Virus record (IMG/VR): IMGVR_UViG_3300031918_000035
Span: 1-52,316 of that record
Direction: 5' to 3' (one strand)
Length of the DNA: 52,316 nt
DNA from: a virus
Made by a program: the position numbers and the translations under genes. Shown here one piece after another: positions 5,304-40,343 of this stretch (position 1 is its first letter; every line of letters begins with the position of its first letter). Under the pieces are notes generated by a model that was not told the DNA's origin, did no database searches, and was given only the letters and a program-made list of their open reading frames with translations.

Positions 5304-6002
5304 ATGAGCGTCATCGATAAGCTTCTAAAGAGCATTCGCGGGGTAGGCAAAGGCAACCCGATTACCTATATGCAGCTTTCCGCTATCATCAGGGCGCTGT
5401 GGAGCGAAACACATGACAACAATGTGATTGAAAATATTGCACAGGTTGCGCATGGTTTTACAGTTGGACAAACGGTAAGGCAAAATGGAGAAGGCGCATG
5501 GGAATTAGCGCAAGCTGATGCTTTTGGCGTAATGGCAATCGTTTGCAGGGTTGTGACAGCAGATATTTTTTGGATTAGAACCGGTGGATTGCTCCCAGGC
5601 GAATACACTATCGCCGCTAAGTATTTTCAGTCAATAGTAACTTCTGGCGCATTAATGATGCAAACCGATCCCGAAGTATGGGAAGCGGGGCAATACTGGC
5701 AATTTATCGGAACCGGATCGGATAAAGGTTTACTGATCGAAATTGCAGAACCAACCATTATAAGTGAAATTGCCATCGGAGAAGTGAAAGAAGTTGATCT
5801 AATTGGGGTTGTAGATGGCGAAAACAAAAATTATTCAACACCAGTTGCTTATCAACCTGGAAGTATATCAGTTTTTTTAAACGGACAAAAATTAAACAAG
5901 GACGATTATACAGAGACAAGCGATACAACGGTAACGCTTGTAGACGCTCCTAAAAATACAATGTTTACAGATGTAGTTTCGGCAATTATAACACTTAAAT
6001 AG
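5304..6002 (+). CDS. Putative tail or baseplate protein
   Basis: 232 residues with a helical N-terminus (about 1-50), then a beta-rich body. The C-terminal part (VFLNGQKLNKDDYTETSDTT then DVVSAIITLK) matches a small repeat-like module also seen at the end of the next protein (LFLNGQLQDANAGVDYTISY). This module is typical of phage tail proteins that mount fibres. The gene begins two bases after the preceding one. Structural role inferred from context and from the shared C-terminal module. Confidence 0.6.
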   Translation: MSVIDKLLKSIRGVGKGNPITYMQLSAIIRALWSETHDNNVIENIAQVAHGFTVGQTVRQNGEGAWELAQADAFGVMAIVCRVVTADIFWIRTGGLLPGEYTIAAKYFQSIVTSGALMMQTDPEVWEAGQYWQFIGTGSDKGLLIEIAEPTIISEIAIGEVKEVDLIGVVDGENKNYSTPVAYQPGSISVFLNGQKLNKDDYTETSDTTVTLVDAPKNTMFTDVVSAIITLK

Positions 6003-6009
6003 TAAAGTC

Positions 6010-6978
6010 ATGACACCATTTAGAAGTAGTACGCAATTAAAGATTGATGAAAATCTGAATTATAACGGGAAAAAGGGAGTTAGTTTGGCTGATGGGGTTG
6101 ATGCTCAGGACGCGGTAACGGTTAACCAGTTGAACAATGCTGTTATGTCAGGATCAACATCAATACATGCACCTGTTGCCGACTTAGCGGCTTCAAAGGC
6201 TGTTGTTGCAGCCGCAAGAGCAGATAGGATGCTGATGCTCATAGAAACAATTGGCTTATATGCATTCGATGCTCAAAGTACGATAGCCAGTAACGATGAC
6301 TCGGTAATAAGACCTACTGATATCGCTTCAGATGCTTCAGCCGGAAGGTGGATTCGACTTTCAAGTAATATTACTGATATTGTGGCAATCTTAAATAATG
6401 CTGCAGCTATCACAGTTATTGCCGATGCCGATAAAATGAACGTACTGGTATCGGGGGTGATCAAAAATGTCACATGGGCTTATATAAAATCAATCCTTAA
6501 AACTTATTTCGACGACCTGTACAACAAGTATGTTCACCCAAATCATTCTGGAGATGTTACTTCGGTTGCTGACGGAGCGCAAACAATTGCAGCCAATGCA
6601 GTCACAAACGCAAAGGCAGCACAGATGGCTACTAAAACATATAAAGGTCGTACAAGTGCCGGAACAGGAAATGCAGAAGATGTTTCGGTTGCTACGTTAA
6701 AAACTGATTTAGGGATGCGTACAAGATACTACAGGCAATCTCTTACTGGTGCTATAACCGGGTCAAATACAGTATTTACAATCATCGCAAATATAGTTTC
6801 AGGCTCAGAAGAACTATTTTTGAACGGTCAACTTCAGGATGCCAATGCCGGGGTCGATTATACGATCAGCTACGGAGCTACTACTACAGTAACGTTTGCA
6901 ACTGCCCCTAAATCAGTGGTTGTCGATGGCGTTACTTATACCGACAAAATATTAATGAGTTATGACGTTTTAAACTAA
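6010..6978 (+). CDS. Tail fibre-like protein
   Basis: 322 residues. The N-terminus (NGKKGVSLADGVDAQDAVTV then NQLN) resembles the repeat units of Bacteroidetes phage fibres. Residues about 55-120 resemble a domain often found at fibre or stalk starts. The C-terminal 60 residues repeat the LFLNGQ-D-DYTISYG module of the upstream protein. Rich in Ala, Thr and Val, no membrane segment. Likely part of the host-recognition apparatus. Confidence 0.6.
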   Translation: MTPFRSSTQLKIDENLNYNGKKGVSLADGVDAQDAVTVNQLNNAVMSGSTSIHAPVADLAASKAVVAAARADRMLMLIETIGLYAFDAQSTIASNDDSVIRPTDIASDASAGRWIRLSSNITDIVAILNNAAAITVIADADKMNVLVSGVIKNVTWAYIKSILKTYFDDLYNKYVHPNHSGDVTSVADGAQTIAANAVTNAKAAQMATKTYKGRTSAGTGNAEDVSVATLKTDLGMRTRYYRQSLTGAITGSNTVFTIIANIVSGSEELFLNGQLQDANAGVDYTISYGATTTVTFATAPKSVVVDGVTYTDKILMSYDVLN

Positions 6979-9978: not shown

Positions 9979-12759
9979 ATGTACACACTCACAATTGGTA
10001 ACAACCAGCTAATTCTCGATAGCGATTTTTCGCCATCGTTAACCTATAAAAATCCGGCATGGTGTTTTGGAGAGCTTCCCGGTCCGTTGTGTCTCGATGT
10101 AACTATTCCTGATAACGACATCAACCGAAACTATCTGGGGTTTCCCGGTCGTTTTGCTAAAGTGGCAAAAAAGAACGACCGAAAATTCCCGAAAGCCGAA
10201 CTTCGTTGGAATGGCTACTTATATATTTATGGAACGCTTGTTATCACTAAAACCGACGAAAAAAGATATTCAGGCTATATACAAAGCGAACTTCGTAGCC
10301 TTAGCGATGCACAACAGGAGAAATTAATTGGCAACCACAATCTATTGGGCGAATTGACTTTTGTAAACAAAACAAATTACGATCCTGCGACAGATAATTA
10401 CTGCACCATAAGGCTAAGTAACGATGGGTTCTGGACTGATAAGGGCGAACAGGAAACTGTCGACAATGAAACACGCAGCGTGTTAACCCGCAAATTTCGC
10501 GATACTGTCGAGTCGGTTGTGAATGCCACCACGATCGATGGTGTAAAAGTATCAGCTGCTGATAGTGAGGTGGTGGTGGTAAGCCCCTTCCCGTTTTTGC
10601 ATAAATTAATCGAGCTTCTTCTTCGCGAAAACAAATTATTCGTGCGAAACGATTTTCTCCGGGGCGATGCCGATTTGAAAACACTTTGCCTTTATCACAA
10701 TGTCTCAATATGCGAACCAACATCTGTACTTCTGCCAGTTGAAACATGGTATTATTTTGATTATTTTGATAATGATGGCAATGCGGTAATTAATAATTAT
10801 AAAATCGATTCAGTTATCGAAACCCAAACATGGGAAACAGCCAATTTTAAACTTAAAAAGTTGTTGCCAAAAATGAAGCTTAACGAATTAATACTTTCGA
10901 TACAGAACCTCACAAACAGTTTTTACCATTTTTCAGGCATCGACGACGTGGATAACATTGACCGCGAAAGCCTGTTTGACATGACACCATTCGATCTGTC
11001 GAAATACCGTATTAGCCGCTGGTTACCCGGCACCCGTCAAAACCTTTGCCTAAAGTTTAAATTCTCGCACGACTCCGACGACCAGATATTTAACGAGAAC
11101 TTTACCGATATCAGTTCGCGCGAAGACGACATAAAAGAAGCAGTACAAACCTATCCTGATTTGCTCTTAATTACCGGAATGAAAATTGGCAACATTCGCC
11201 TGGTAATTGCCGAAAAAAAATACTACGAATACCGGCAGGAAACCATCGAAGACGAAGCAGGCAAATCGAAAAATGTAATAATATGGGCCATTCTAACAGT
11301 CGATATTCAGGACTATAAATATAACCCTACCGGCGACGAATCAGAAAATATAGAAACTATGTTTTCGACACTGCTGATGAAATTGGACGGACAGCCAATC
11401 GCTTTACAGAAAGGAAACAACAGCCAGTTTTCACAATATACCGAGAATTTCAGTCCGCGCCTGCTGTTTTACAATGGCAATAATACTGGAGGATCAACAT
11501 CCAGCTCCGGCTTGTCGATCGACTGGAAAAGTCTGGTTGCTACCCGTTACCGGCGTACTGCCCCGTTTTATGCAAATGCTTTACCGATTGAAGCCGATTT
11601 TAGGTTTCCAGGAAATATTTTATATAAAGTGCTGAACGAAATTTATAAACCTTACCTCGATCGTGACGGATCGTTTTTCATTAAGGAATTGCAGATTAGT
11701 TCAGCCACATCGGAGTTTGTGAATGCCACATTAACCGTATTCAAAAACGAAGACAATGTATTTGAGTCCACAGCTGATACAGTTACCGGAGGTGGCGAAC
11801 ATTTCGGTAACTTGTTTACCCCAATGTTTATCGGCGTTACCGAAAACGGCTGGCCAATCCTGATCAATGCGCAGGGAATTCCTCGCCCGATGCCCGATTA
11901 TGGCAACCTGTCTACCGTAACGTTTGCAAACAAAACATGTGTCGAATACAATGCAGCCTACAAACAGCTTTTTGTGGGTGGAAATAATGGCCAGTTGCAT
12001 GTTTGCGACTTAAGTGACATGGAAAACCTGAGATACAAAACTATCCAGGTGTTTGCCGGAACCGACGAAATTTCAGCCGTGGCTATCTGCAATAACATTC
12101 TTTTTATTGGTCGTGCCTGCTCTCCTCCAATTGCGTATGTGGTGCCTATGCATGCAAATTTCGACGACTATGCAAACGGGGCTATCCAGTTGGCGCCGTT
12201 CAATTCATCAAGCGACTTTATCCGTTCGTTTATGTATGCAGATGGATGGTATTATGCCTGCAATACCGGTGGCGAATTGTTCCGAAGCGAAAACGGAACG
12301 GTTGAATGGGCCGAAGTTTTTGATACACATTCAGAATACATCAAAATCGGTCTGACAGCATCTCGAATATGGCTGGTAGAGTTGAACGAGGACCTGATGT
12401 ATTCGCTCCGGAGCGATCCAACGCATTTTAACCGATTTGGAGGACTGGCAGGCGATCCGCTTCAGCATGTCCGCGATTTGCAACCGCTATTGAATGATCA
12501 GATTCTATACCTATGCGACGATGATGCAGCCTGTATATTCAAGATCGATCCGGGTGTGTCGAATGCGAACATCACACCAAACGGAATCAAGAGTGCCGGT
12601 GGCGCTTGTTTCGATGGCACAAAGTATGCCTATATCAGCGTGAAGGATTGGGGAGGCTATACTAAAATTGCTACTTACAACGACAATGTTGTTGGTGCTG
12701 AAGTTATCTGGAGTTACCTGAATGTTCAGGCATTCTTCAGCAAATTGTTTTTGTACTAA
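9979..12759 (+). CDS. Large tail-tip or fibre protein with propeller-like C-terminus
   Basis: 926 residues without a signal or membrane segment. The N-terminus (MYTLTIGNNQLILDSDFSPS) is of the type found in Bacteroidetes phage tail proteins. The C-terminal 300 residues contain repeated beta-strand units with Gly-Gly turns (KQLFVGGNNGQLHVCD, ILFIGRACSPP, YACNTGGELFRSENG) that suggest a beta-propeller, a fold used for receptor or sugar binding. It is the last gene before a strong terminator, closing the tail module. The specific ligand is not predictable. Confidence 0.6.
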   Translation: MYTLTIGNNQLILDSDFSPSLTYKNPAWCFGELPGPLCLDVTIPDNDINRNYLGFPGRFAKVAKKNDRKFPKAELRWNGYLYIYGTLVITKTDEKRYSGYIQSELRSLSDAQQEKLIGNHNLLGELTFVNKTNYDPATDNYCTIRLSNDGFWTDKGEQETVDNETRSVLTRKFRDTVESVVNATTIDGVKVSAADSEVVVVSPFPFLHKLIELLLRENKLFVRNDFLRGDADLKTLCLYHNVSICEPTSVLLPVETWYYFDYFDNDGNAVINNYKIDSVIETQTWETANFKLKKLLPKMKLNELILSIQNLTNSFYHFSGIDDVDNIDRESLFDMTPFDLSKYRISRWLPGTRQNLCLKFKFSHDSDDQIFNENFTDISSREDDIKEAVQTYPDLLLITGMKIGNIRLVIAEKKYYEYRQETIEDEAGKSKNVIIWAILTVDIQDYKYNPTGDESENIETMFSTLLMKLDGQPIALQKGNNSQFSQYTENFSPRLLFYNGNNTGGSTSSSGLSIDWKSLVATRYRRTAPFYANALPIEADFRFPGNILYKVLNEIYKPYLDRDGSFFIKELQISSATSEFVNATLTVFKNEDNVFESTADTVTGGGEHFGNLFTPMFIGVTENGWPILINAQGIPRPMPDYGNLSTVTFANKTCVEYNAAYKQLFVGGNNGQLHVCDLSDMENLRYKTIQVFAGTDEISAVAICNNILFIGRACSPPIAYVVPMHANFDDYANGAIQLAPFNSSSDFIRSFMYADGWYYACNTGGELFRSENGTVEWAEVFDTHSEYIKIGLTASRIWLVELNEDLMYSLRSDPTHFNRFGGLAGDPLQHVRDLQPLLNDQILYLCDDDAACIFKIDPGVSNANITPNGIKSAGGACFDGTKYAYISVKDWGGYTKIATYNDNVVGAEVIWSYLNVQAFFSKLFLY

Positions 12760-12785
12760 AAGTCACCTTCCCTCCATTTTAATAC

Positions 12786-12828
12786 AACTCCGGGTGCGGC
12801 TAAAAGTCGCGCCCGGAGTTCTTTTTTT
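12786..12828 (+). terminator. Strong terminator at the end of the tail module
   Basis: The stem pairs AACTCCGGG with CCCGGAGTT and GCG with CGC, and is followed by a run of seven T. It separates tail and lysis genes. Confidence 0.9.
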
Positions 12829-15528: not shown

Positions 15529-16788
15529 TTATATACAAAATTCAAATTCTTCCAAAACAATAGTACAGGCAAATCCGGGTGGATCAGGAAACTTAGTTCG
15601 CACATGTTCCGACCGCTCCCCGAAATGCCTGCGGATATACCGGTAGGTTGAAGCAATATCGGTATGACCCAGTTGATTCATTATCTCGACGATAGTAGCG
15701 CCACTCTCAAGTAATTTTCCGGCGCCGGTATGTTTGAATGAATACCACTTGTACAAATCGGTTAATCCAAGCTGCTCCCGATACTTATTAAACCGGGTCC
15801 TCAATGTATTGTACCCGATTGAAAATTTACCCGGACGTCCAAACCGGCTGATTAGGTACATATCCTTTCCATAGTGAATTACGCCCTGTTCAACCAGTAT
15901 TTTGTACATCTGAGCCGGAATATCAACCGTTCGTTCTTTCCGTTTTTTGGCTACGTTTTTAGGTATATGTATCGTTCGTGCCGACATATTTACCTGATTA
16001 AGTTTAAGCTTAAGCAATTCGTCACCTGGCCGGATGAAACAAAAATACTGGAGCATGGCGCCAAGAAACAGTTGGGGATCTTCAGCCCTGATCATTGGAA
16101 GTATCAATTCTAAATCTTCATCCAGAAATGGAATAGCTGAGAAATCCTCACCAGGTTCCGGAATTCCAATTCTACCCACCGGACTCTCATTGATTACTTT
16201 GCGATCGATAAGATAAGCCCAGAAGCCATCGAGCGTAATTTTATATTTTTCAACTGTTGGACCTGCCAGATGACGATCAATAATCAAGTGATCGAAAAAT
16301 CTAAGAATCAGATCATGATTATATGTTGAAAGGTCATTGTCAACCAATTTTTCACGCTCGAGCCATGACACAAACTCCCGGAGTTTACCGCGATAACTTT
16401 CGTAAGTTTTTTTTGCTTTGATGCTTTTCTGAAGGGTGACATATTCGGAGGCATAGAACCTGACGTTCTTATTTGCCTGTCGCTTACGACCGTATACCTG
16501 AGCAGCTGTGTGATACTCCAGATCATCGACATATACCACCTGAACTGAGGAGTCATCTGTAGGATTCCATCCCTTCAGCAGTTTTGCAGTGAGGTTATTG
16601 ATTAACTCTTCACCAAACTTATACCGATCCTTTTTTGTACGGATTTGGGCAAAACCTTCCTGATATCGTTTCCGCACCATTTTATCAGTTCGCGGATCAC
16701 GATAGCCAATCTCAACCCACCAGGGTTTTGAAAGGTCGCCGCCCTGATCAAACAGGCGCGGCGCCCTGAACAATTTCTGTCGTCTCAT
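15529..16788 (-). CDS. Phage tyrosine integrase
   Basis: 419 residues from the ATG at 16788; a longer frame to 16845 exists, but the internal start (MRRQKLFRAP) gives the usual N-terminus. It should catalyse phage integration and excision at attP/attB. A SAM-like core-binding domain lies at about 110-215, the catalytic domain at about 225-395. Visible active-site elements are FIRPGDE (Arg), the Lys-rich NVAKKRKER hairpin, YSFKHTGA in place of HxxRH, QLGHTD (His) and YRYIRRHFG (Tyr). The YSFKHT variant is common in Bacteroidetes integrases. It points away from the immunity genes, and repeat-rich DNA lies upstream. Confidence 0.93.
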   Translation of the reverse strand: MRRQKLFRAPRLFDQGGDLSKPWWVEIGYRDPRTDKMVRKRYQEGFAQIRTKKDRYKFGEELINNLTAKLLKGWNPTDDSSVQVVYVDDLEYHTAAQVYGRKRQANKNVRFYASEYVTLQKSIKAKKTYESYRGKLREFVSWLEREKLVDNDLSTYNHDLILRFFDHLIIDRHLAGPTVEKYKITLDGFWAYLIDRKVINESPVGRIGIPEPGEDFSAIPFLDEDLELILPMIRAEDPQLFLGAMLQYFCFIRPGDELLKLKLNQVNMSARTIHIPKNVAKKRKERTVDIPAQMYKILVEQGVIHYGKDMYLISRFGRPGKFSIGYNTLRTRFNKYREQLGLTDLYKWYSFKHTGAGKLLESGATIVEIMNQLGHTDIASTYRYIRRHFGERSEHVRTKFPDPPGFACTIVLEEFEFCI

Positions 16789-17101
16789 AATGTCTGAATA
16801 AAGTTCGTCCCCACGCCCAAAAAACAAACACATACATAACGACATACATTTTCTTTAACGCTGACATACACTTTTTAAACCTTAAAGCGTTGAAAATCAG
16901 CTATCTTATAAAACATCGTGGAGCTGGCGGGAGATTCAAAAACCCTTTAACCACTTCATCCTGATGTTCTTGAAAATCGTATTATGTGTATGTTGCAAGT
17001 TTTGGTTGTATTCGTGAGTGTAGCTATAATATAATGTGTATGTCGTTTGTCCTTTCCTGCATTTACCAAAACGATTAGCATTGTTGAAAATTTATTCAAT
17101 T
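16789..17101. promoter_or_regulatory. Candidate attP/control region with GTGTATGT repeats
   Basis: This gap between the integrase and the first rightward gene carries TTATGTGTATGT at 16982-16993, TAATGTGTATGTC at 17032-17044, and inverted forms GACATACAC at 16863-16871 and GACATACAT at 16841-16849. A further direct copy lies at 17478-17490. Several direct and inverted copies of one motif next to an integrase gene fit arm-type integrase sites, or operators. A core att site cannot be identified without the host junctions. Confidence 0.45.
16806..16823 (+). repeat. 18-bp direct repeat, copy 1
   Basis: CGTCCCCACGCCCAAAAA is repeated exactly at 19738-19755, and both copies continue with A-rich CAAACACA-like DNA. 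This copy is upstream of the integrase start. Confidence 0.75.
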
Positions 17102-26116: not shown

Positions 26117-27067
26117 ATGAAACGGATCAACAATTTATACGAGAAGATTTACAGCATCGAAAACCTCCAGTTGGCTGATGAGATTGCCCGAAAAGGGAAA
26201 TTAAAACAGCCTGGAGTAATCGGGCACGACCGGAACCGGGAAGCAAACATTCAAAAGCTGCATAAAATGCTGAAGGATAAAACCTATAAAACCTCTGAAT
26301 ATACAACGTTCACCATTTTTGAACCCAAAGAGCGCCTGATATTCCGTTTGCCTTATTATCCTGACCGGATCACCCATCACGCGGTGATGAACGTTCTGGA
26401 GCTAATTTTTGTGTCTGTATTTACTGCAGATACTTACAGCTGCATCAAAGGAAAAGGCATCCATGCTGCGGCCAATGCGGTGAAACATGCGCTGAGAGAT
26501 GTTCCCGGAACTCAATACTGCCTGAAACTCGATATTCGGAAGTTTTACCCGAATGTGGATCACAAAATACTCAAGCAGCTGCTTCGCCGTAAAATCAAGG
26601 ATAATGACCTGCTTTGGCTGCTCGACGAGATTATAGATTCAACCGATGGTCTTCCGATCGGGAACTACCTGAGCCAGTACTTTGCTAATTTCTACTTGAC
26701 ATACTTTGATCACTGGATGAAAGAAACCCTGCAGGTGAAGTACTATTTCCGTTACGCTGATGACCTGGTGATCCTCTCAAGCAGCAAGCCTTATTTGCAC
26801 CAATTGCTTGCCGAAATTAGGACTTATCTGAAAGACCGGCTTAAACTAACAGTAAAAGGAAACTATCAGGTATTTCCTGTCGATGTCCGAGGAATTGATT
26901 TTGTTGGATATGTCTTCCGTCACACACATACGCTGCTCCGGAAGAGCATCAAACAGAACTTTGCCCGAATGCTTAAAACCAGAAGAAATGCTCAATCAAT
27001 TGCATCATACAACGGATGGGCAGCGCACTGCAATTCCAAAAATTTAATGAAAAAACTACTTGCATGA
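26117..27067 (+). CDS. DGR reverse transcriptase
   Basis: 316 residues with the RT domains in order: an N-terminal part to about 90, CLKLDIRKFYPNVDH (first catalytic Asp), LPIGNYLSQYFANF (residues about 180-192), and YFRYADDLVILS (YADD at about 213-216). The IGxxxSQ motif in place of QGxxxSP is the distinguishing mark of DGR reverse transcriptases, linked to loose selection at template A. The C-terminus (SIASYNGWAAHCNSKNLMKK) is the usual end of this family. Together with adjacent TR and VR it makes a complete DGR. The stop overlaps the next gene's start by 4 bases. Confidence 0.96.
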   Translation: MKRINNLYEKIYSIENLQLADEIARKGKLKQPGVIGHDRNREANIQKLHKMLKDKTYKTSEYTTFTIFEPKERLIFRLPYYPDRITHHAVMNVLELIFVSVFTADTYSCIKGKGIHAAANAVKHALRDVPGTQYCLKLDIRKFYPNVDHKILKQLLRRKIKDNDLLWLLDEIIDSTDGLPIGNYLSQYFANFYLTYFDHWMKETLQVKYYFRYADDLVILSSSKPYLHQLLAEIRTYLKDRLKLTVKGNYQVFPVDVRGIDFVGYVFRHTHTLLRKSIKQNFARMLKTRRNAQSIASYNGWAAHCNSKNLMKKLLA

Positions 27068-33528: not shown

Positions 33529-33586
33529 CGTTAATTTTTAGACCGACAATAGACCTATTTGAAACAAACCTTTTTAAATAAATGAT

Positions 33587-33985: not shown

Positions 33986-34115
33986 AAATAACATCCAAAG
34001 CTATACGCAGGGCAGGTTACGAAGCGATTCACTTTCCTGTCCGCCAAGTAGCTGATACGGGCTGCAAAGCTCGAAACCCGATGCTACCTGACTTGCCGGA
34101 TAGCTGAAGTTAACT
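33986..34115 (+). repeat. attC-like site A (130 bp)
   Basis: The site is bounded by AATAAC on the left and GTTAACT on the right. Its arms pair TAAC with GTTA, AGCTAT with ATAGCT, and CGCAGGGCAGG with CCTGACTTGCCGG, with mismatches and extra bases on one side, as in attC. The central 60 bases are a variable loop. It is very similar to site C throughout. The gene module at 34256 begins after it. Confidence 0.8.
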
Positions 34116-34192
34116 GCCAGGGCTTCATTTTGTATCAATTGTTACAAACAAGTAAAATAATTACGAAATATCGAAAAATAATTGTAAAAAAG

Positions 34193-34224
34193 CTTGCATG
34201 ATATTACTATATATCGTATCTTTA
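34193..34224 (+). promoter_or_regulatory. Promoter of the first a-b-c module
   Basis: TTG at 34194, 20 bases, then TATCTTTAC, close to the Bacteroidetes -33/-7 pattern (TTTG, TAnnTTTG). The same promoter and leader occur at 38623-38654, almost unchanged, before the second module. Confidence 0.65.
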
Positions 34225-34255
34225 CTTCATCAAACAATCACAAATACAAAACATC

Positions 34256-34549
34256 ATGGCAACTTTAGAAATCGGACAAACAGGAAAATTAGGAAATGAA
34301 ATTTTAACAGTAGTTTCTATTTCTGAACCAACTTTTAAGTGTGACAACGGCAAAATGTACATGATTGCAACTGCAAAATGGATGACTGAAGGAATTGAAA
34401 TAGCAGCTCCAAAGGCAAAGAAAGCAAGAAAATACAACGCAGCCCCCGAAGATTATTTAACAGATATGACAAGAGAAGAAGCTGACAGAGCTGAAGCATA
34501 CATGGCAAATGCAAAATTCAGACAAGCAGGTAGCTCATTAAGAAAATAA
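34256..34549 (+). CDS. Module gene a1, unknown function
   Basis: 97 residues, closely related to the protein of 38686-38979 (about 90 percent the same by eye). The N-terminal beta part (MATLEIGQ-GKLGNE-LTVVS) is followed by a Lys/Ala-rich helical middle and a conserved end (AYMANAKFRQAGSSLRK). The ATG follows a 30-base leader that is conserved between copies. First gene of a cassette; function unknown. The differences are concentrated around residues 20-30. Confidence 0.6.
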   Translation: MATLEIGQTGKLGNEILTVVSISEPTFKCDNGKMYMIATAKWMTEGIEIAAPKAKKARKYNAAPEDYLTDMTREEADRAEAYMANAKFRQAGSSLRK

Positions 34550-34556
34550 TAAAAAT

Positions 34557-35672
34557 ATGAATATAGCTTTAATTGACAATGATCTACTAATGAGAGATAA
34601 TCATAATTTCCCCAACTTGGCAATTATGAAACTATCTGCATTTCATAAAAACAAAGGAGATGTCGTAGAAATAGCTACTTTTAATGAAATAAACCCTTTA
34701 GCGCTCTTTAAAAAAGAATACGATAAGATTTATATTTCAAAAGCTTTTACCGAAACACCAACGCCTTCATTTGTTTATAATTTACCAAATGTAAAGATTG
34801 GTGGCACTGGATTTTATTTTGATAAAGCAGAACCGTTGCCTTATGAAATAGAACACACAAAACCTGATTACGATGCTTATAATTCAGCTTATAGAATTAT
34901 AAAAGACACAATGTTTTATACTGATTATTCAATTGGCTATACTACTAGAGGATGCTTTAGACATTGCTTATTTTGTGTAAACATTAATAGTAATAAAGTT
35001 AAAGTACACAGTCATATTGATGAGTTTTATGATTCTTCAAGAAAAAAAATAGTTTTACTGGATGATAATGTTTTAGGATTACCAAACAATGAGCTTTTTA
35101 AAATATTTGATAAGTTTCAGGAAATAAATAAACCAATTAATTACAAACAAGGACTCGATATCCGCTTGCTTTCAAAAGAACGAATTGATAGGTTATTTAG
35201 GTTAAAATATGATGGAGGAAAAGGCGGGTTTACTTATTATTTTGCATTTGATTTATGGGAAAATAAATCCAAAATTGAAGAAAATTTAAAAATGTTTTCA
35301 GAAATGTATTTTGAAAGAAAGCCTGATGTAAAATGGTAAGAACGAAATTGTATTGTTTTTGCGGGTTTAACCCAAATAATGAAAAATCTGAAAACTACTG
35401 GTTAACCGATTTGGAAATACTTTTTAAACGATTTGAAATAATATTTAGATATAAGGCCGCCCCTTATGTAATGAAGCATAAAGATTATAAAGAAAGTCCC
35501 TTTTTTTTACGTTTATGATGAAGTTGCAAACTATATTAATTCAATAAATGGAACTTGTTTATCTATGAGCTTTAATGAATATTTGGATACAGCTTATAAA
35601 AACACAGTCAAAACACGTCAATTTAGAGATAAATACCCACAATTTAAAATATTATTTAACACTAAATTATAA
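34557..35672 (+). pseudogene. Radical-SAM-like phage protein broken by two frameshifts
   Basis: The first part (34557-35339, 260 residues) has CFRHCLFC (Cys133, Cys137, Cys140; CxxxCxxC), the Fe-S site of radical SAM enzymes, and an N-terminal cobalamin-binding-like region. It stops at TAA 35337-35339. A second frame (35333-35518) continues with LYCFCGFNPNNEKSENYWLT, which belongs to the same family. A third frame continues after the 8-T run near 35508 to TAA at 35670-35672 (ending KYPQFKILFNTKL). Both breaks are in homopolymers (AAAA and T8), so this is either real decay or sequencing error. The gene is inserted between a1 and b1; copy 2 of the module lacks it. Confidence 0.75.
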
Positions 35673-35677
35673 AAGAA

Positions 35678-35923
35678 ATGAAAACTTACTCATTGATCAA
35701 AACAAAGGCTGGCGAACGCAAAGGAACTGAAAATTCAAATTTTATTGGTGAAAATGAGAATGATCCTAAAATGTTGGCTGAAGTGAAAACTTACCTAACT
35801 GAATGGCTGAATAGTTATACAAGCATTTCGGATGAAGAAATTGCCGATTTGTTTTCTGCCTTCGCTGGCAGTTTTTCTTATGACGTTTGGAGCTTTGAAT
35901 TAATCGAAGAAAATGAAAATTAA
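35678..35923 (+). CDS. Module gene b1, variable member
   Basis: 81 residues. The ends (KTY-LIKTKAGERKGTE and GSFSYDVW-FELIEENEN) are conserved with b2 at 39010; the middle (residues about 33-62) differs strongly. The stop overlaps the Xre gene by 11 bases, so the two are probably translated together. The combination resembles a toxin-antitoxin or a regulated pair, but no toxin fold is recognised. Confidence 0.55.
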   Translation: MKTYSLIKTKAGERKGTENSNFIGENENDPKMLAEVKTYLTEWLNSYTSISDEEIADLFSAFAGSFSYDVWSFELIEENEN

Positions 35924-36110
35924 CGAAGCTATCAAGGCTGCAAGAATTGAGCAAAATATAACTCAAAAAGAACTTGCCGAAAAAATTGAAGTTCGCAAAG
36001 CCACAATTTCAGAGTTCGAGAGCGGTAAACATGCTCTCGGCTCTGACAAACTCGAAGCGATAATGAACGCTTTAAATCTGACATTTTCAAAATACACGGA
36101 CGCAGATTAG
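35913..36110 (+). CDS. Module gene c1, Xre-type HTH regulator
   Basis: 65 residues that are a single Xre/HTH_3 domain (ITQKELAEKIEVRKATISEF then ESGKHALGSDKLEAIMNALN). Almost identical to the second copy at 39248 (two substitutions near the C-terminus). It could bind the promoter of its own cassette, or act as an antitoxin to b1. The gene ends 7 bases before the left core of site B. Confidence 0.85.
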   Translation: MKINEAIKAARIEQNITQKELAEKIEVRKATISEFESGKHALGSDKLEAIMNALNLTFSKYTDAD

Positions 36111-36116
36111 CCTTGC

Positions 36117-36248
36117 AGTTAACGCTCCCGCCAATACACGCAGTTGGGGATTTGAAAGATAATTTGTCAAACATAAATAAAACTTAAAAAATGAATGAAC
36201 AAACGAAAACCACCGAAACCCCAATTGACGGGTATTTGGCTGTTATAA
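36117..36248 (+). repeat. attC-like site B (132 bp), with embedded start codon
   Basis: Left core AGTTAAC, right core GTTATAA. Arms pair AAC with GTT, GCCAATAC with GTATTTGGC, and GTTGGGG with CCCCAAT. The homology between the two a-b-c modules ends exactly at the left core GTTAAC. The ATG of the next gene (36191) lies inside the site. Confidence 0.75.
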
Positions 36249-36448
36249 CCAGTTTTTCAGCCTGTCCACATTGCGGAAGCACGTATGGTTATTATAGCCG
36301 AGTCAAAATATCTGGCACGGTTGATTATCAATGTGATTTTAACGGCAATGGCGAAAATACCAATATCGCAGATGGTTTTAATTACACAACAATCAGCAAA
36401 ACTTACAGATGTATCGAGTGTCGAAAGATAATCTGTCAGATACATTAA
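36191..36448 (+). CDS. Cassette zinc-ribbon protein, start inside site B
   Basis: 85 residues. CPHCGSTYGYY (about 24-34) and CIECRKIIC (about 76-84) give a zinc ribbon with the metal-binding Cys far apart. The first 17 residues (MNEQTKTTETPIDGYLA) are encoded by the att-like site B and resemble the start of the methyltransferase at 37622, which is encoded by site D. No other ATG occurs in this frame, so the gene uses the att-derived start. Function unknown; a nucleic-acid-binding role is possible. Confidence 0.55.
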   Translation: MNEQTKTTETPIDGYLAVITSFSACPHCGSTYGYYSRVKISGTVDYQCDFNGNGENTNIADGFNYTTISKTYRCIECRKIICQIH

Positions 36449-36454
36449 AATTGG

Positions 36455-36584
36455 TTATAACGGTGGAAGCTATACGCAGGGCAGGATGCGAAGCGATTCA
36501 CTTTCCTGTCCGAGAACTGGCTGATACGGGCTGCAACGCTCGAAAACTACGGCTGCCTGACTTGCCGGATAGCTGAAGTTAGCA
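36455..36584 (+). repeat. attC-like site C (130 bp)
   Basis: Left core TTATAAC, right core GTTAGCA. Arms pair TAAC/GTTA, AGCTAT/ATAGCT and CGCAGGGCAGG against CCTGACTTGCCGG. The same length as A and nearly the same sequence. Where the arms differ from A (TTAC against ATGC near 36485), the other arm also differs, so pairing is partly kept. Confidence 0.8.
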
Positions 36585-36619
36585 ACTAGGCGTTCATTCA
36601 TCAACTTAAATCTAAAAAT

Positions 36620-37201
36620 ATGCCTTGGTACGATTTAAACGAAAAAGTAGAAACGAAAAAGGATTATTTGCAAAGAGTCAAATATGATGAGATTATTTGC
36701 AAGAAAACTAAAAATTTCATTGACATTATTGGAGATGATTTATCCCCAAATGTTCAATATCGAATGGTAACGGAACAATCTTTTAATGCAATAGTCGTAA
36801 TTGAATATTTGCTTAAAAGATATGAGTTAGTTGAGATTTATATTGCTGTTTACCGAATGAATCAATTGTCAGTCAACAAACTAAAATCAATCATTGATGC
36901 CGGAAATATTAAATGTTCGATTTTGATTTCTTCGTTTTTTCGTGAAAACAAACGATATGAACGCTGGGCCGAAGAACTGATTATGTATGCCGAAAAAAGA
37001 GAAAATGTAGAAGTTTCTTTTGCTGTAAATCACGCGAAAGTTTTTATTGCAAAAACAAAGGATTTGAAATTTATAGTTTTTGAAGGGAGCGGAAATTTAT
37101 CCGATAATGCCAGGATAGAGCAATATTTGATTGAGGATAATGAAACAACATACAATTTTCATAAAGAATGGATTACTAACACTTTAAATTTAAAAAAATG
37201 A
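36620..37201 (+). CDS. Cassette PLD-like protein
   Basis: 193 residues. FAVNHAKVFIAKTKDLKFIV then EGSGNLSDNARIEQYLIEDN holds a phospholipase-D-type half site (His138, Lys140, Asn159). It is clearly related to the PLD-like protein at 48748-49344, next to the terminase genes (HAKV, S-N-DN-E). One HxK motif means it would need to dimerise for catalysis. It could be a nuclease, but the active-site completeness is uncertain. It overlaps the next gene by 4 bases, and the pair forms one cassette cargo. Confidence 0.65.
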   Translation: MPWYDLNEKVETKKDYLQRVKYDEIICKKTKNFIDIIGDDLSPNVQYRMVTEQSFNAIVVIEYLLKRYELVEIYIAVYRMNQLSVNKLKSIIDAGNIKCSILISSFFRENKRYERWAEELIMYAEKRENVEVSFAVNHAKVFIAKTKDLKFIVFEGSGNLSDNARIEQYLIEDNETTYNFHKEWITNTLNLKK

Positions 37202-37512
37202 AAATCGAAAAAGAAAACGAAGAGCAGATTATCAATTTCGGAGTATTTACATATGATGCTTTGAAAATGGCCAATATTCTAAATCTTGAAGAAGCTGAAA
37301 TTGCAAATGAAATGAGAGATAAAACATCTGATTTTTATAAGCTATATCAAAAAGGCTGCGATATGGCAGACTATGTAATTGATTTAAAATTATTCGAAAT
37401 GGCAAAGTCTGGCGATATAAAAGCTCTTGACAAATTAGATGATCGAAAAGAGATTCGAAATGCAGAAACAAGAGAAAGATTTAAAGAAATAGCAAGACAG
37501 AAAAGAGAATAA
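37198..37512 (+). CDS. Cassette small-terminase-like helical protein
   Basis: 104 residues, helical. TYDALKMANILNLEEAEIAN then YQKGCDMADYVIDLKLFEMA and KSGDIKALDKL has the layout of phage small-terminase-like proteins (YxKG then an (A/S)-G-D helix). The protein at 49319-49603 has the same pattern and also follows a PLD-like gene, so the two pairs are paralogous. ATGA overlap with the PLD-like gene. Role: perhaps DNA recognition for packaging or interference with it; inferred only. Confidence 0.5.
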   Translation: MKIEKENEEQIINFGVFTYDALKMANILNLEEAEIANEMRDKTSDFYKLYQKGCDMADYVIDLKLFEMAKSGDIKALDKLDDRKEIRNAETRERFKEIARQKRE

Positions 37513-37558
37513 AATTCAAGAAGATAAAGATCACCATCAACGAAGCACTTACGCTTGT

Positions 37559-37689
37559 TGCTAACGGTGTAGCATACACGAAGTTGGGGAATAGAAAGTA
37601 ATAACCTGTCAAATTTAACGAATGAAAATAGATACAGATACAGTAACAACCTGCACCGATACCCCAATTGCGGGTATGCGAAGTTATGC
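37559..37689 (+). repeat. attC-like site D (131 bp), with embedded start codon
   Basis: Left core TGCTAAC, right core GTTATGC. Arms pair TAAC/GTTA, GCATAC/GTATGC and AGTTGGGG/CCCCAATT, with CG pairs between. The ATGs of the methyltransferase frame at 37622 and 37676 both lie inside the site. Confidence 0.75.
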
Positions 37690-38419
37690 ACAGCTTTCAC
37701 ATGGATCTCTGTTCAGCGGGATTGAAGGTTTTGGATTAGGTGCTGCAATGGCTGGAATCAAAACGGTTTTTAGTTGCGAATTTGAAGATTTTCAAACAAG
37801 TATTATTAAAAAGAATTTTGGAGATGAACACGAAATCAATAGAGATATTAGAACGTATAAAAACCCGCCATTTGTTGACATCATTAGCGGTGGATTCCCT
37901 TGCCAGGACATCAGTATTGCTGGAAAAGGTATCGGAATTGGAGGTGAAAGAAGCGGCTTATGGTCTGAAATGTACCGTATTTGTGGGATCGTTAGACCAA
38001 AGTACATTATCATTGAAAACAGCCCAATGCTCCTTGTTCGAGGATTTGAGCAAGTCCTTTGCGACCTTTCCAAAATCGGGTATTATGCAGAATGGCAATG
38101 TTTATCTGGCACCGACTTTGGAATACAACAGGGTAGAGAGCGATTATATTGTATTGCCTACACCAACGAAATCGACAGCAAAAGGAGCTGCACGGAATCG
38201 GTATTTCGGAAGCCCTACTTACAGGGGAAATATACACGAGTATATCCGGGATGGAGAACAAGACAGTCTTTACCCTCACCCCGATTTGCTGGAAAATCTA
38301 ATGTCATTCCCGATAGGATGGACAGAACTCAGTCAATAGGTAATGCGGTTCAACCGATAATTTCTCATTATCTTTTTGAATGTATCAAAATGCACTACGC
38401 CAAATTAAGTTGTGCATAA
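37622..38419 (+). CDS. C5 cytosine DNA methyltransferase (cassette)
   Basis: 265 residues with the conserved motifs in order: SLFSGIEGFGLG (I, SAM binding, about 29-40), GGFPCQDIS (IV, catalytic Cys94), ENS (VI, 132-134), QGRERLYCIA (VIII) and SIGNAVQP (X, about 238-245). The target recognition region (about 180-235) is very short, so this is a compact enzyme. A second possible start, ATG 37676 (MRSYAQLSHGSL), is the more normal start for the family, and the extra 18 residues come from site D. The stop TAA (38417-38419) is part of the left core of site E. No restriction enzyme gene is beside it, so it is probably protective against host restriction. Confidence 0.9.
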   Translation: MKIDTDTVTTCTDTPIAGMRSYAQLSHGSLFSGIEGFGLGAAMAGIKTVFSCEFEDFQTSIIKKNFGDEHEINRDIRTYKNPPFVDIISGGFPCQDISIAGKGIGIGGERSGLWSEMYRICGIVRPKYIIIENSPMLLVRGFEQVLCDLSKIGYYAEWQCLSGTDFGIQQGRERLYCIAYTNEIDSKRSCTESVFRKPYLQGKYTRVYPGWRTRQSLPSPRFAGKSNVIPDRMDRTQSIGNAVQPIISHYLFECIKMHYAKLSCA

Positions 38420-38546
38420 CGGTCTGCAAGTACACGTCAGGGCTGGACTACGGGCTGAAACCTTTCTTGTCAGAGCAAAAGACCGGGCGAATAAATGCAG
38501 ACCGCACCGCACTGCTGCCAGACTTGCGGGTACTTTGCTGTTAACT
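38414..38546 (+). repeat. attC-like site E (133 bp)
   Basis: Left core GCATAAC, right core GTTAACT. Arms pair TAAC/GTTA, GCAAGTAC/GTACTTTGC and CAGGGCTGG/CCAGACTTG. Its stem box differs from A, C, B and D but is self-complementary. The homology of the two a-b-c modules begins exactly at the right core GTTAACTGC. Confidence 0.78.
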
Positions 38547-38622
38547 GCTGGGCTTCGTTTTGTATCAATTGTTACAAACAAGTAAAATAATTACGAAATA
38601 TCGAAAAATAATTGCAAAAAAG

Positions 38623-38654
38623 CTTGCATGATATTACTATATATCGTATCTTTA
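38623..38654 (+). promoter_or_regulatory. Promoter of the second a-b-c module
   Basis: TTG at 38624, 20 bases, then TATCTTTAC, identical to the promoter at 34193-34224. The cassette therefore brings its own promoter. Confidence 0.65.
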
Positions 38655-38685
38655 CTTCATCAAACAATCACAAATACAAAACATC

Positions 38686-38979
38686 ATGGCAACTTTAGAA
38701 ATCGGACAAAAAGGAAAATTAGGAAATGAAGTTTTAACAGTAGTTTCTTTTGATAACATGACTTTCAAATGCGACAACGGCAAAATGTACATGATTGCAA
38801 CTGCAAAATGGATGACTGAAGGAATTGAAACAGCAGCCCCAAAAGCAAAGAAAGTAAGAAAATACAACGCAGCTCCCGAAAATTATTTATCAGAAATGAC
38901 AAGAGAAGAATCAGATAGAGCTGAAGCATACATGGCAAATGCAAAATTCAGACAAGCAGGTAGCTCATTAAGAAAATAA
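38686..38979 (+). CDS. Module gene a2, unknown function
   Basis: 97 residues, a paralogue of the gene at 34256, with most differences around residues 19-30 (SFDNM replaces SISEPT). The leader DNA before it is almost identical to that of copy 1, more so than the coding part. The middle is Lys/Ala-rich and the end AYMANAKFRQAGSSLRK is the same. Function unknown. First gene of the right-hand copy of the module. Confidence 0.6.
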   Translation: MATLEIGQKGKLGNEVLTVVSFDNMTFKCDNGKMYMIATAKWMTEGIETAAPKAKKVRKYNAAPENYLSEMTREESDRAEAYMANAKFRQAGSSLRK

Positions 38980-39009
38980 TAACCATTATAACCATTAAAA
39001 CCATTTAAA

Positions 39010-39258
39010 ATGAAAACTTACTTATTGATCAAAACAAAAGCTGGCGAACGCAAAGGAACTGAAATTTCAAATTTCATTGGTGAAAATGAAAATGATCCTA
39101 AAATGTTGAAGGAAACTGAAACCTACCTTCGCGCCTGGTTGGATAGTTACAACAACAGCCTGACACTTGAAGAGATTGACAGACTGTTTGAAAATTTTGA
39201 AGGTAGTTTCTCTTATGACGTTTGGAATTTTGAATTAATCGAAGAAAATGAAAATTAA
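39010..39258 (+). CDS. Module gene b2, variable member
   Basis: 82 residues, paralogous to b1 at 35678. The N-terminal 30 and C-terminal 20 residues match, but the middle (LKETETYLRAWLDSYNNSLT against b1's LAEVKTYLTEWLNSYTSIS) differs, with one extra residue. It overlaps the Xre gene by 11 bases as in copy 1. A faster-changing gene between two conserved ones suggests a specificity or effector role. Confidence 0.55.
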   Translation: MKTYLLIKTKAGERKGTEISNFIGENENDPKMLKETETYLRAWLDSYNNSLTLEEIDRLFENFEGSFSYDVWNFELIEENEN

Positions 39259-39445
39259 CGAAGCCATCAAGGCTGCAAGAATTGAGCAAAATATAACTCA
39301 AAAAGAACTTGCCGAAAAAATTGAAGTTCGCAAAGCCACAATTTCAGAGTTCGAGAGCGGAAAACATGCTCTCGGCTCTGACAAGCTCGAAGCGATAATG
39401 AACGCTTTAAATCTGACTTTTTCAAAATGCACGGACGCAAATTAG
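39248..39445 (+). CDS. Module gene c2, Xre-type HTH regulator
   Basis: 65 residues, identical to c1 except two substitutions near the C-terminus (Tyr to Cys, Asp to Asn). A single HTH_3 domain. The stop is followed by CCTTGCAGTTAAC, the same string as after c1, which ends exactly where the two copies stop matching (39458). May repress the promoter of either copy. Confidence 0.85.
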   Translation: MKINEAIKAARIEQNITQKELAEKIEVRKATISEFESGKHALGSDKLEAIMNALNLTFSKCTDAN

Positions 39446-39452
39446 CCTTGCA

Positions 39453-39458
39453 GTTAAC
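39453..39458 (+). repeat. GTTAAC core F at the array end
   Basis: GTTAAC behind the second module. No right half of an att-like site was found in the next 130 bases, so it is only a core. It lies 51 bases before the recombinase start and is a candidate for the attI-like or end site. Confidence 0.5.
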
Positions 39459-39509
39459 TACTATATGTATTTTATTCTCACAACAAACTAACATTTAAAA
39501 CTTTACAGC

Positions 39510-40343
39510 ATGAACATCGGAAACTATCAACGGCAACTTTCCGACTGGATGAAGTACAAAAAATACTCTCCGGAAAGCATAAGCAATTACGTTTCTTGTA
39601 TCGGTAAGTTTCTCAAATATTTTGAAGATGAAGCAACAAAACCGAGTGAGATTTCTGCTGTTCAGATTAAAAAGTTTCTATCAACAAAACAGCAAGTAAA
39701 TACTCATAAGGCTTATTTGTGTGCAATAAAGTTGTTTTACGAAAAGGTTGGACATCAACCGAGAAAGCTCGATAATGTTGAATATCCACGATCTGAAAAG
39801 AAATTGCCAATTGTTTTGAGTCAGGATGAAATACAAAAAATGTTTGATGTTTGCGAAAACCTTAAACACCGCACTATTTTAGCATTGATTTACTCCTGTG
39901 GGTTGCGTGTTTCTGAAGTAATAAATCTGCAATGGAGTCACATCGACTGCAGCCGAATGATAATCAACATTATTTGCGCAAAAGGGCGCAAAGACCGACA
40001 AATTGCATTACCCGAAACCATAATACCACTACTGAAAAGTTATTACAAAGAATATCACACTGAAAAATATGTTTTGAATGGTCAGTTTGGATTAAAATAT
40101 TCAGACAGAAGCGTACTAGAGGTAATGAAGCAATTAGCCGCAAAATCAAAAATTAAAAAGCGAGTTTACACTCATCTTATCAGGCATAGCACATTTACGC
40201 ACATGGTTGAGCAGGGCACAGACATAAACCTCATTCAGCGAATTGCAGGCCACAACAATGTTAAAACAACGATGCTCTATTGTCATCTTTCTGATAATCT
40301 TATCAGCAGAATACAATCACCAATTTCTAACATTAGAATTTGA
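39510..40343 (+). CDS. Xer-like tyrosine recombinase at the array end
   Basis: 277 residues. A SAM-like N-terminal domain (about 5-85) and a catalytic domain with Arg133 (CGLRVSE), Lys158 (AKGRKDR), His222 and Arg225 (HLIRHS), His248 (AGHNN) and Tyr257 (TTMLYCHLSD): all six residues are present. It is 40-60 residues shorter than integron integrases. Between Lys158 and His222 it lacks the stretch that carries the IntI-specific insertion of IntI1. It ends RIQSPISNI, similar to the ends of Xer/IntI proteins. It should cut and rejoin the att-like sites upstream, inferred from position. It is read in the same direction as the cassette genes. Confidence 0.85.
   Translation: MNIGNYQRQLSDWMKYKKYSPESISNYVSCIGKFLKYFEDEATKPSEISAVQIKKFLSTKQQVNTHKAYLCAIKLFYEKVGHQPRKLDNVEYPRSEKKLPIVLSQDEIQKMFDVCENLKHRTILALIYSCGLRVSEVINLQWSHIDCSRMIINIICAKGRKDRQIALPETIIPLLKSYYKEYHTEKYVLNGQFGLKYSDRSVLEVMKQLAAKSKIKKRVYTHLIRHSTFTHMVEQGTDINLIQRIAGHNNVKTTMLYCHLSDNLISRIQSPISNIRI

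Follow-up and report, generated by a model that had tools for sequence, protein, structure and literature searches.

Can a phage own a machine for collecting genes, one that takes them up as cassettes beside a recombinase gene and trades them with its relatives? The question is raised by a stretch of viral DNA of 52,316 nucleotides (IMG/VR record IMGVR_UViG_3300031918_000035, positions 1 to 52,316; the whole stretch is called the window here) that carries, between 33.9 and 40.4 kb, five repeated sites resembling the attC sites of integrons, groups of genes between them and, at the right-hand end, a gene for a tyrosine recombinase. Integrons have so far been thought of as bacterial, and lately archaeal, capture platforms defined by the integrase IntI with its extra domain. 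Is this one of them, and what else could it be?

We judge, at a probability of roughly 0.87, that the region is a working integron-like cassette platform in a phage, with a XerA-like recombinase, an attI-like site and folded cassette sites. What we can show, at the level of sequence, is the anatomy of the sites, the R'/R'' complementarity of cassette ends, an attI-like motif, the co-occurrence of sites and recombinase, and exchanges of arrays and cassettes that are bounded by the cores. The system works like an integron, yet its recombinase lacks the insertion that marks IntI. A sequence-only reading of the window had already proposed an integron-like cassette array; our analysis supports it, with corrections, adding the attI-like site, the inverted direction of the cassette genes and a recombinase closest to XerA, with no IntI insertion.

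Sites, attI-like motif and recombinase

What do the sites look like? We scanned both strands for pairs of TAAC and GTTA that enclose complementary arms, using an arm-pairing score of our own, and recovered all five of the repeats that had been noticed, within limits that were drawn about 3 nucleotides (nt) wider on each side than our own, which run from TAAC to GTTA. They lie on the plus strand: site A at 33989..34112 (score 15.1), the leftmost and the left boundary of the array; B at 36120..36245 (17.4), which contains the ATG (36191) of the following gene; C at 36458..36581 (14.7), 86-89% like A; D at 37562..37686 (16.9), which contains the ATG (37622) of a methyltransferase gene; and E at 38417..38543 (14.1). 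Each measures 124-127 nt, with arms pairing just inside the cores, and the imperfection of the arms is indeed one-sided, the left spacer exceeding the right by 3-4 nt in five sites of five. While A and C are similar at length, B, D and E have only shorter motifs in common; the conserved words are TAAC and TA.ACG..AG in the left arm, TTG..GG and GTTA in the right. By our arm-pairing score, then, the sites have the paired outer cores, the spacered complementary arms and the variable loop of an integron site.

How often would such pairs turn up by chance? Against scores of 14.1-17.4 for the five sites, the best pair in the 45.8 kb outside 33.9-40.4 kb reaches 12.8, and inside the region there is one extra pair (36768-36829, score 14.3), which is motif-less and lies within an open reading frame (ORF). 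Dinucleotide shuffles of the 6.5-kb region yielded any pair of at least 14 in 7 of 100 cases (mean 0.11 per shuffle), with a maximum of four unmerged pairs in a single shuffle and a top score of 16.4. The array is also more A/T-rich than the backbone, as had been said, its G+C content being 34.7% against 41.8% on the left side and 41.7% on the right. At gathering thresholds, Rfam models find nothing in the window except a tRNA, and a DNA search with 166 bases around site B found no match among GenBank phages. We rejected a loose regular expression for the site core, the output of which was mostly noise, and we dropped a sixth cassette to the left of A (start near 33529), since GATAAAAAA, which directly precedes A, resembles the AGATAAA/AGATAGA left boundary of two related arrays (L140 and L144; numbers of this kind are our labels for other loci).

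Where would new cassettes come in? The last cassette ends in R''-TAAC with no attC after it; a conserved TAAC-(N)-TATATGTA stands there instead, about 55 bp before the recombinase start. In the window, this attI-like site is TAACTACTATATGTA at 39455..39469 on the plus strand, 55 bp before the recombinase ATG (minus strand TACATATAGTA-GTTA). Among 24 loci, the regular expression TAACN0-8TATAT finds it in 16, of which 14 have it 53-57 bp before the ATG, while L011 has it at 70 bp and L012 at 66 bp, their start codons having been assigned otherwise; near variants can be seen by eye in six more (L030, L031, L032, L034, L040 and, without the first T, L035), the motif of L029 has diverged, and in L036 the start is misassigned. 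This motif, together with the exact array differences found at it (see below), places an attI beside the integrase gene as in an integron, and new cassettes would presumably enter there. The minus strand reads like an integron: the int gene comes first, attI follows, and then come GTTA, cassette and attC in repetition. In 44 of 53 sites, it is the int-coding strand that forms the better pairing, in 3 it is the other strand, and 6 are equal, a bias in predicted pairing that would fit bottom-strand recombination with the int-coding strand as the "bottom."

And the enzyme? The proposed integrase of the array, at 39510..40343 on the plus strand, is a complete tyrosine recombinase of 277 amino acids, Xer-like as had been recognized and closest to XerA. 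It matches PF00589 with 121.6 bits, the NCBIfam model XerA_Arch (NF040815) with 183.2 bits, below the cut-off of 220 at which a XerA equivalog is called, and the integron integrase model TIGR02249 with 162.6 bits in two stretches, below the cut-off of 265; these cut-offs are given for the window recombinase only, and all 21 aligned sequences match XerA_Arch, XerC/D and, at 1e-10, TIGR02249. The Protein Data Bank ranking is XerA 5hxy, then 4a8e, then IntI4 2a3v. In a phmmer comparison with IntI4 (2a3v), the recombinase has 23 residues where IntI4 has 65, while XerA 5hxy aligns in one piece; that is, the additional IntI-specific domain around patch III is absent from the recombinase, which is why we do not count the enzyme among the integron integrases. 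The predicted structure (pLDDT 83.6, pTM 0.60) matches XerA, IntI4 and XerH with TM-scores of only 0.53-0.69, XerA having the best Foldseek E-value. R133, K158, H222, R225, H248 and Y257, which we take to have catalytic roles, are invariant among the 21 aligned sequences, and a C-terminal SP(I/L) motif is common to the recombinase and IntI4. The phage has two tyrosine recombinases, the other being a separate phage-type integrase at 15529-16845 (phrog_1), and since it has this integrase, it is probably temperate.

These parts suggest how the platform might operate. The XerA-like recombinase would bind the attC-like hairpins and, a little upstream of its own gene, the attI-like site, with the folded int-coding strand as its substrate, and would insert and excise circular cassettes at the common TAAC/GTTA core; the cassette genes would bring their own start signals, several of them with a start inside attC and the TAA of the core as their stop. 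It is from position and co-occurrence that we infer that this enzyme catalyses the exchange.

Complementarity and exchange of cassettes

In integrons, R'' at the outer core of attC pairs with the start, R', of its own cassette, the two meeting in the circular form. The accessible part of PMC4909258 seems to report a 7-bp complementarity of this kind. Does the same rule hold in the phage? We compared the start of each cassette (GTTA plus 9 nt) with its own end, counting matches of 9 nt. The window cassettes read, in order, GTTA-ACTGC/GCAGT-TAAC, GTTA-TAACCA/TGGTTA-TAAC, GTTA-GCAAC/GTTGC-TAAC, GTTA-TGCACA/TGTGCA-TAAC and, with its end at attI, GTTA-ACTGC/GCAGT-TAAC again; cassettes 2 to 5 match at 8/9, 7/9, 8/9 and 7/9. 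Across 40 cassettes in 16 loci, own start and own end agree at 6.1/9, against 2.87/9 for shuffled partners of the same 40 (standard deviation [sd] 0.23; maximum of 10,000 shuffles 3.75), 3.6/9 for a start and the next cassette's end in the same locus (n=24) and 2.60/9 for the two sides of one site (n=42). A second set, of 33 cassettes in 10 other loci, gave 6.09/9 against 2.89 shuffled (sd 0.24) and 2.89 within one site. The last cassettes of 14 testable loci score 6.14/9 with the R'' at attI, inner cassettes 6.08/9, and the low scorers are mostly long intervals, where a site may have been overlooked. Complementarity across each cassette is, as a pattern in the DNA, the R'/R'' rule of integrons: R'' is complementary to the start of its own cassette.

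If the cassettes move, relatives should differ in them, and exactly at the cores. Four loci, L140, L144, L145 and L081, among the matches listed from scanning viral contigs for TAACTAYTATATGTA, have one recombinase sequence under four different metagenome numbers; they share it and are not independent. To the right of the attI TAAC, there is 1 difference between L140 and L144 in 6,856 positions, there are 13 between L140 and L145 in 4,405 (99.7-99.99% identity), and the first mismatch between L140 and L081 comes 986 nt after TAAC. To the left of it, 0 (L144), 1 (L145) and 0 (L081) bases agree with L140 before the sequences diverge, L081 holding yet another cassette. The left ends of L140 and L144 are alike again, at 97% over 383 nt, with the agreement stopping at TAAC, so that a whole array differs between two fixed points. 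The test by which the sequence-only reading had offered to be refuted, cassette variation at the cores in related phages, thus came out in its favor (L140/L144/L145). The exchange is seen in relatives with a recombinase 57% identical and not in the close kin of the window, of which there is one: L001, with the same array, identical over 14 kb, and either the same phage or a near copy.

Single cassettes are shared as well. L033 and L145 have one in common (92.9% over 85 nt up to the core), followed by attC in one and by attI in the other; in L005 and L078 (94.8%, 193 nt) and in L081 and L144 (100% over 90 nt), the homology stops at the core; and site E of the window with the genes after it is 78.8% identical to L078 over 864 nt, starting at TAAC in both. 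Which gene does a site travel with? Our first view, that it belongs to the preceding gene, was given up: site E and the body after it are homologous to L078, and breaks occur on the TAAC side, so on the plus strand the site travels with the gene that follows. Cassettes are, then, gained, lost and shared as units, and breaks are seen on the GTTA side too. Near-identical phage contigs with completely different cassettes make it seem that these phages exchange accessory genes in much the way that bacteria use integrons. One virus record, L071 (IMGVR_UViG_3300033562_001473; 2,049 bp, exact 141-nt terminal repeat, repeat unit of 1,908 bp, two cassettes), is a candidate for an excised cassette circle. 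From an assembler whose largest k-mer is 141, a circle would be expected to come out with an overlap of just that length.

Distribution and rival explanations

Relatives of the recombinase, at 52-100% identity, are found on 20 viral contigs, L001 among them, and at 54-60% on four contigs of metagenome-assembled genomes, three of them labelled as Bacteroidota groups, for which reason the host is probably a member of the Bacteroidota; further relatives are among the matches listed from the scan for the attI motif. In 395 Bacteroidota genomes, with at most six candidates scored per genome, a single genome among the matches listed, already known, reached E<=1e-95. Do the sites go with this enzyme? 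Where the recombinase is 40-100% identical and at least 1 kb upstream is available, a site of at least 15.5 is present in 23 of 27 loci (L122 having just one); nine other family loci had less than 1 kb upstream, two of them with sites, and L001 was excluded as the same phage. The distribution is one-sided: sites of at least 16 in 24 loci number 53 in 126,750 bp upstream and 0 in 127,633 bp downstream. A scan of 20 neighbouring proteins from 17 loci, four of which matched nothing, found phage genes near the recombinases: portal (L002, L007 and, weakly, L011), tail sheath (L028), major head (L032, L031), tail (L034), helicases (L004, L039, L040), primase (L035) and head maturation protease (L012). 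In L012, the recombinase lies about 1.3 kb before relatives (25-34%) of the head genes of the window.

Distant recombinases (L013-L018, L019-L027 and L060-L065, several with short flanks) have no such arrays. Heads of the window type also occur without the platform: L044-L046 hold head-region genes at 58-81% identity, L047-L049 and L054 hold head-gene relatives too, and in the stretches fetched, none of these loci has a recombinase of this family or an array. In Polaribacter phage P12002L, from which an integrase-less attC cluster (CALIN) has been published, tblastn found no relative of the recombinase, and our detector found four scattered weak pairs only; a detector tuned to TAAC/GTTA therefore does not cover all types of attC. 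Longer arrays exist in L098 (seven sites detected) and L078 (eight), with no family recombinase in the fetched stretch. Distant control L022, a Thiorhodococcus drewsii contig, has at 12725-12823 a single strong, canonical-looking attC with a GTTAGG-type core, and its recombinase frame of 417 amino acids is not IntI-like by eye.

What weighs against a working platform? Of the 27 family loci that have 1 kb or more of upstream sequence, four (L011, L012, L038, L135) lack a site of at least 15.5, three plasmid-borne relatives of the recombinase (35-42% identity) have no array, and L044-L046 hold an isolated pair of score 17.1, on the other strand and motif-less. Free folding of single sites hardly beats shuffles (z +0.3 to -2.0), and the comparison of own arms (17.8) with swapped arms (8.5) is partly circular, because the sites were picked by arm pairing. 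The two tested cassettes of L140 match at merely 4/9 and 3/9, and a short unscored cassette (GTTATGGCA...TGCCATAAC), seen by eye, precedes its attI, which means that the detector missed sites; the 25-nt "cassette" of L158, counted in the second set, is doubtful. Some attC bodies are alike when the genes after them differ (window A/C 89%, L009/L144 91%, L036/L078 91%, L005/L036 84%), which is why we place breaks on the GTTA side also, and which does not fully fit travel of a site with its following gene; the repeats of Vibrio are said to be alike in the same way. The terminal repeat of L071 is equally to be expected from a tandem repeat within an array, and the PLD-like cargo gene is found in contigs with no detected sites as well (L070, L072, L073).

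Could other processes have made the same pattern? One might imagine that the cassettes come from bacterial integrons and are moved by the IntI of the host, as in a CALIN, the nearby recombinase being an unrelated phage enzyme. Seventeen such phage clusters have been published, and IntI1 recombined five of six attC sites tested from virulent phages, according to the accessible part of PMC9892861. We consider this very unlikely for the window all the same: one recombinase family has the attI-like motif and the array on its 5' side in different phages, the exchange of arrays falls exactly at that motif, and a single complete classical integron is named from a Bacteroidetes genome in the available text on IntegronFinder 2 (PMC9024848). 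It would be stranger still if the enzyme were a lysogeny integrase and TAAC..TATATGTA its attP, with the repeats as terminators or some other family and the variable DNA as bacterial flank or mosaicism. A phage attP often adjoins int, and XerA-like enzymes can integrate elements, yet the window already has its second, phage-type integrase; the variable DNA of L140 and L144 is flanked by TAAC on both sides, with common sequence on the left; and neither R'/R'' complementarity nor one cassette end that stands before attI in L145 and before attC in L033 is expected of an attP. We regard that account as close to untenable.

A relict is easier to picture, an array that is dead in this phage, its recombination lost. 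The arrays of the window and L001 are the same over their 14 kb, and what follows the radical-SAM-like gene has, to the eye, a decayed look (35340-35660, a remnant-looking run of ORF pieces in differing frames). We think it unlikely: the ORF of the recombinase is intact, its catalytic residues are invariant, and relatives show recent exchange. The working platform with its own XerA-like recombinase remains our preferred explanation.

Cassette genes, cargo and known systems

Cassette ORFs of an integron are read away from attI; here, the longest ORF points to the integrase in 38 of 40 cassettes. An ATG inside attC that reads through GTTA is present in 22 of the 40, an ORF that starts in attC covers at least 89% of the cassette in 13 of these, all toward the integrase, and in 7 the TAA of the next TAAC serves as the stop codon, the methyltransferase of the window being an example. 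For ORFs that run out of attC on the opposite strand, the mirrored counts are 6, 0 and 0 of 26. It would appear from these frames that attC serves as a translation-start module.

Cassette body 1 (34113..36119; all bodies are on the plus strand) holds four genes: a 97-amino-acid gene (34256-34549), a radical-SAM-like gene (34557-35339), an 81-amino-acid gene (35678-35923) and an Xre/HTH_3 gene (35913-36110). Body 2 (36246..36457) has an 85-amino-acid gene (36191-36448), called zinc-ribbon-like on sub-threshold zinc-ribbon matches, and body 3 (36582..37561) a PLD-like gene of 193 amino acids (36620-37201) with one of 104 (37198-37512); a cassette related to body 3 is present on L071 (85% amino-acid identity in the PLD-like gene). 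Body 4 (37687..38416) carries the C5-cytosine methyltransferase gene (37622-38419), whose stop codon is the TAA of the next TAAC. Body 5 (38544..39454), which adjoins attI, is a diverged copy of cassette 1 minus the radical-SAM-like gene, with genes of 97 (38686-38979) and 82 amino acids (39010-39258) and an Xre gene (39248-39445), the translation of which differs from that of the first copy (P0001, 35913-36110) at 2 of 65 residues. The functions first assigned to this cargo stand in part: a scan confirms Xre/HTH_3 in P0001 and the C5-methyltransferase (PF00145, 131 bits), while "radical SAM" (CxxxCxxC) and "PLD-like" (HxK...GSxNLSDN) are labels taken from motifs seen by eye and sub-threshold matches. 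PADLOC returned HTH and methyltransferase matches, one borderline SspH (E 0.01) and nothing else. We would guess that the methyltransferase, the Xre regulators and the small proteins help the phage against its host or its rivals.

How does this compare with what is known? Classical integrons (IntI, attI and attC; chromosomal, class 1 and archaeal) share with the phage system an attI by the integrase gene, an array 5' of it, folded attC sites, R'/R'' complementarity, exchangeable content, and a cargo of small genes and methyltransferases. Unlike them, the phage has a recombinase that lacks the IntI insertion and is about 40 amino acids shorter than IntI4, a core of GTTA plus a variable stretch, and cassette ORFs that face attI, several starting inside attC and stopping in the core. 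XerA-type recombinases (5hxy, 4a8e; NF040815) are the best sequence match and colinear in length; the usual task of Xer enzymes is to resolve chromosome dimers at dif, and we know of none that carries a cassette array. The "reverse" integron of Treponema denticola has an IntI as its integrase. Its integrase and cassette genes run in the same direction, as in the phage (PMC4909258, in the part accessible), whereas the phage array is on the 5' side of its integrase gene, and it is the cassette ORFs that are inverted.

Prior work on phages is closest. The one research paper that we found titled on integrons in phages is that of Qi et al. 2023 (PMC9892861), who ran IntegronFinder and HattCI over 10,705 phage genomes and, in the portion available, report integrons or their components in 21 phages, with attC cassettes and methyltransferase cargo, including an attC cluster in a Polaribacter phage, and recombination of such phage sites by IntI1. 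Those are integrons, fragments or integrase-less clusters; ours is a platform that recurs with a non-IntI recombinase and an attI-like site of its own. The phrase "phage integron" has been used in an editorial (PMC10556736, seen in part). The remark in the sequence-only reading that no classical description exists for a Bacteroidetes phage must be narrowed: because the Polaribacter cluster is published, attC in a Bacteroidota phage is not new as such, and what holds is that we found no report of a dedicated platform with a non-IntI recombinase in titles and the beginnings of abstracts, subscription papers and preprints not included. The IntI-specific domain is restated as defining in the accessible part of Ghaly et al. 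2022 (PMC9668308), where Messier & Roy 2001 are cited, and IntegronFinder requires it, so a Xer-based system would be reported at most as an integrase-less attC cluster.

What would it mean if the platform were confirmed? Viruses would possess their own cassette-capture machine, and accessory genes would circulate as cassettes between phages. We are evenly divided over a bolder proposal: that phages of Bacteroidota own a separate class of integron built on a XerA-type recombinase—be it an independent invention or the survivor of an IntI ancestor that had no extra domain—whose attC loops double as translation-start modules. Either origin would imply that the IntI-specific domain is not required for attC-type recombination, and start modules within the loops would mean that captured genes need no platform promoter for their expression. 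Whether the domain is needed or was a later addition would become directly testable, with an enzyme of 277 amino acids and naturally paired sites.

Two plasmids and the rest of the phage deserve a word. Chryseobacterium plasmid NZ_CP041688.1 (L067) has a lone attC-like site at 10165-10290 (minus strand TAACGTTCTGCGGCTTGGCG...), with no array, 1.4 kb beyond a recombinase gene whose product is 37% identical; a second pair on that plasmid (19.4) is, by its look, a product of chance in A/T-rich sequence. On IncC plasmid NZ_CP084417.1 (L066), a tyrosine recombinase about 42% identical lies at 6001-6750 between an ISAs1-type transposase and blaVEB-3, with no attC-like site of at least 15.5 within 12.7 kb. 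The backbone of the window has tail genes with a tape measure, a primase and a head maturation protease, and at 26117-27067 there is a reverse-transcriptase-like gene (phrog_1423, E 6e-128) that is 91% identical in L044-L046.

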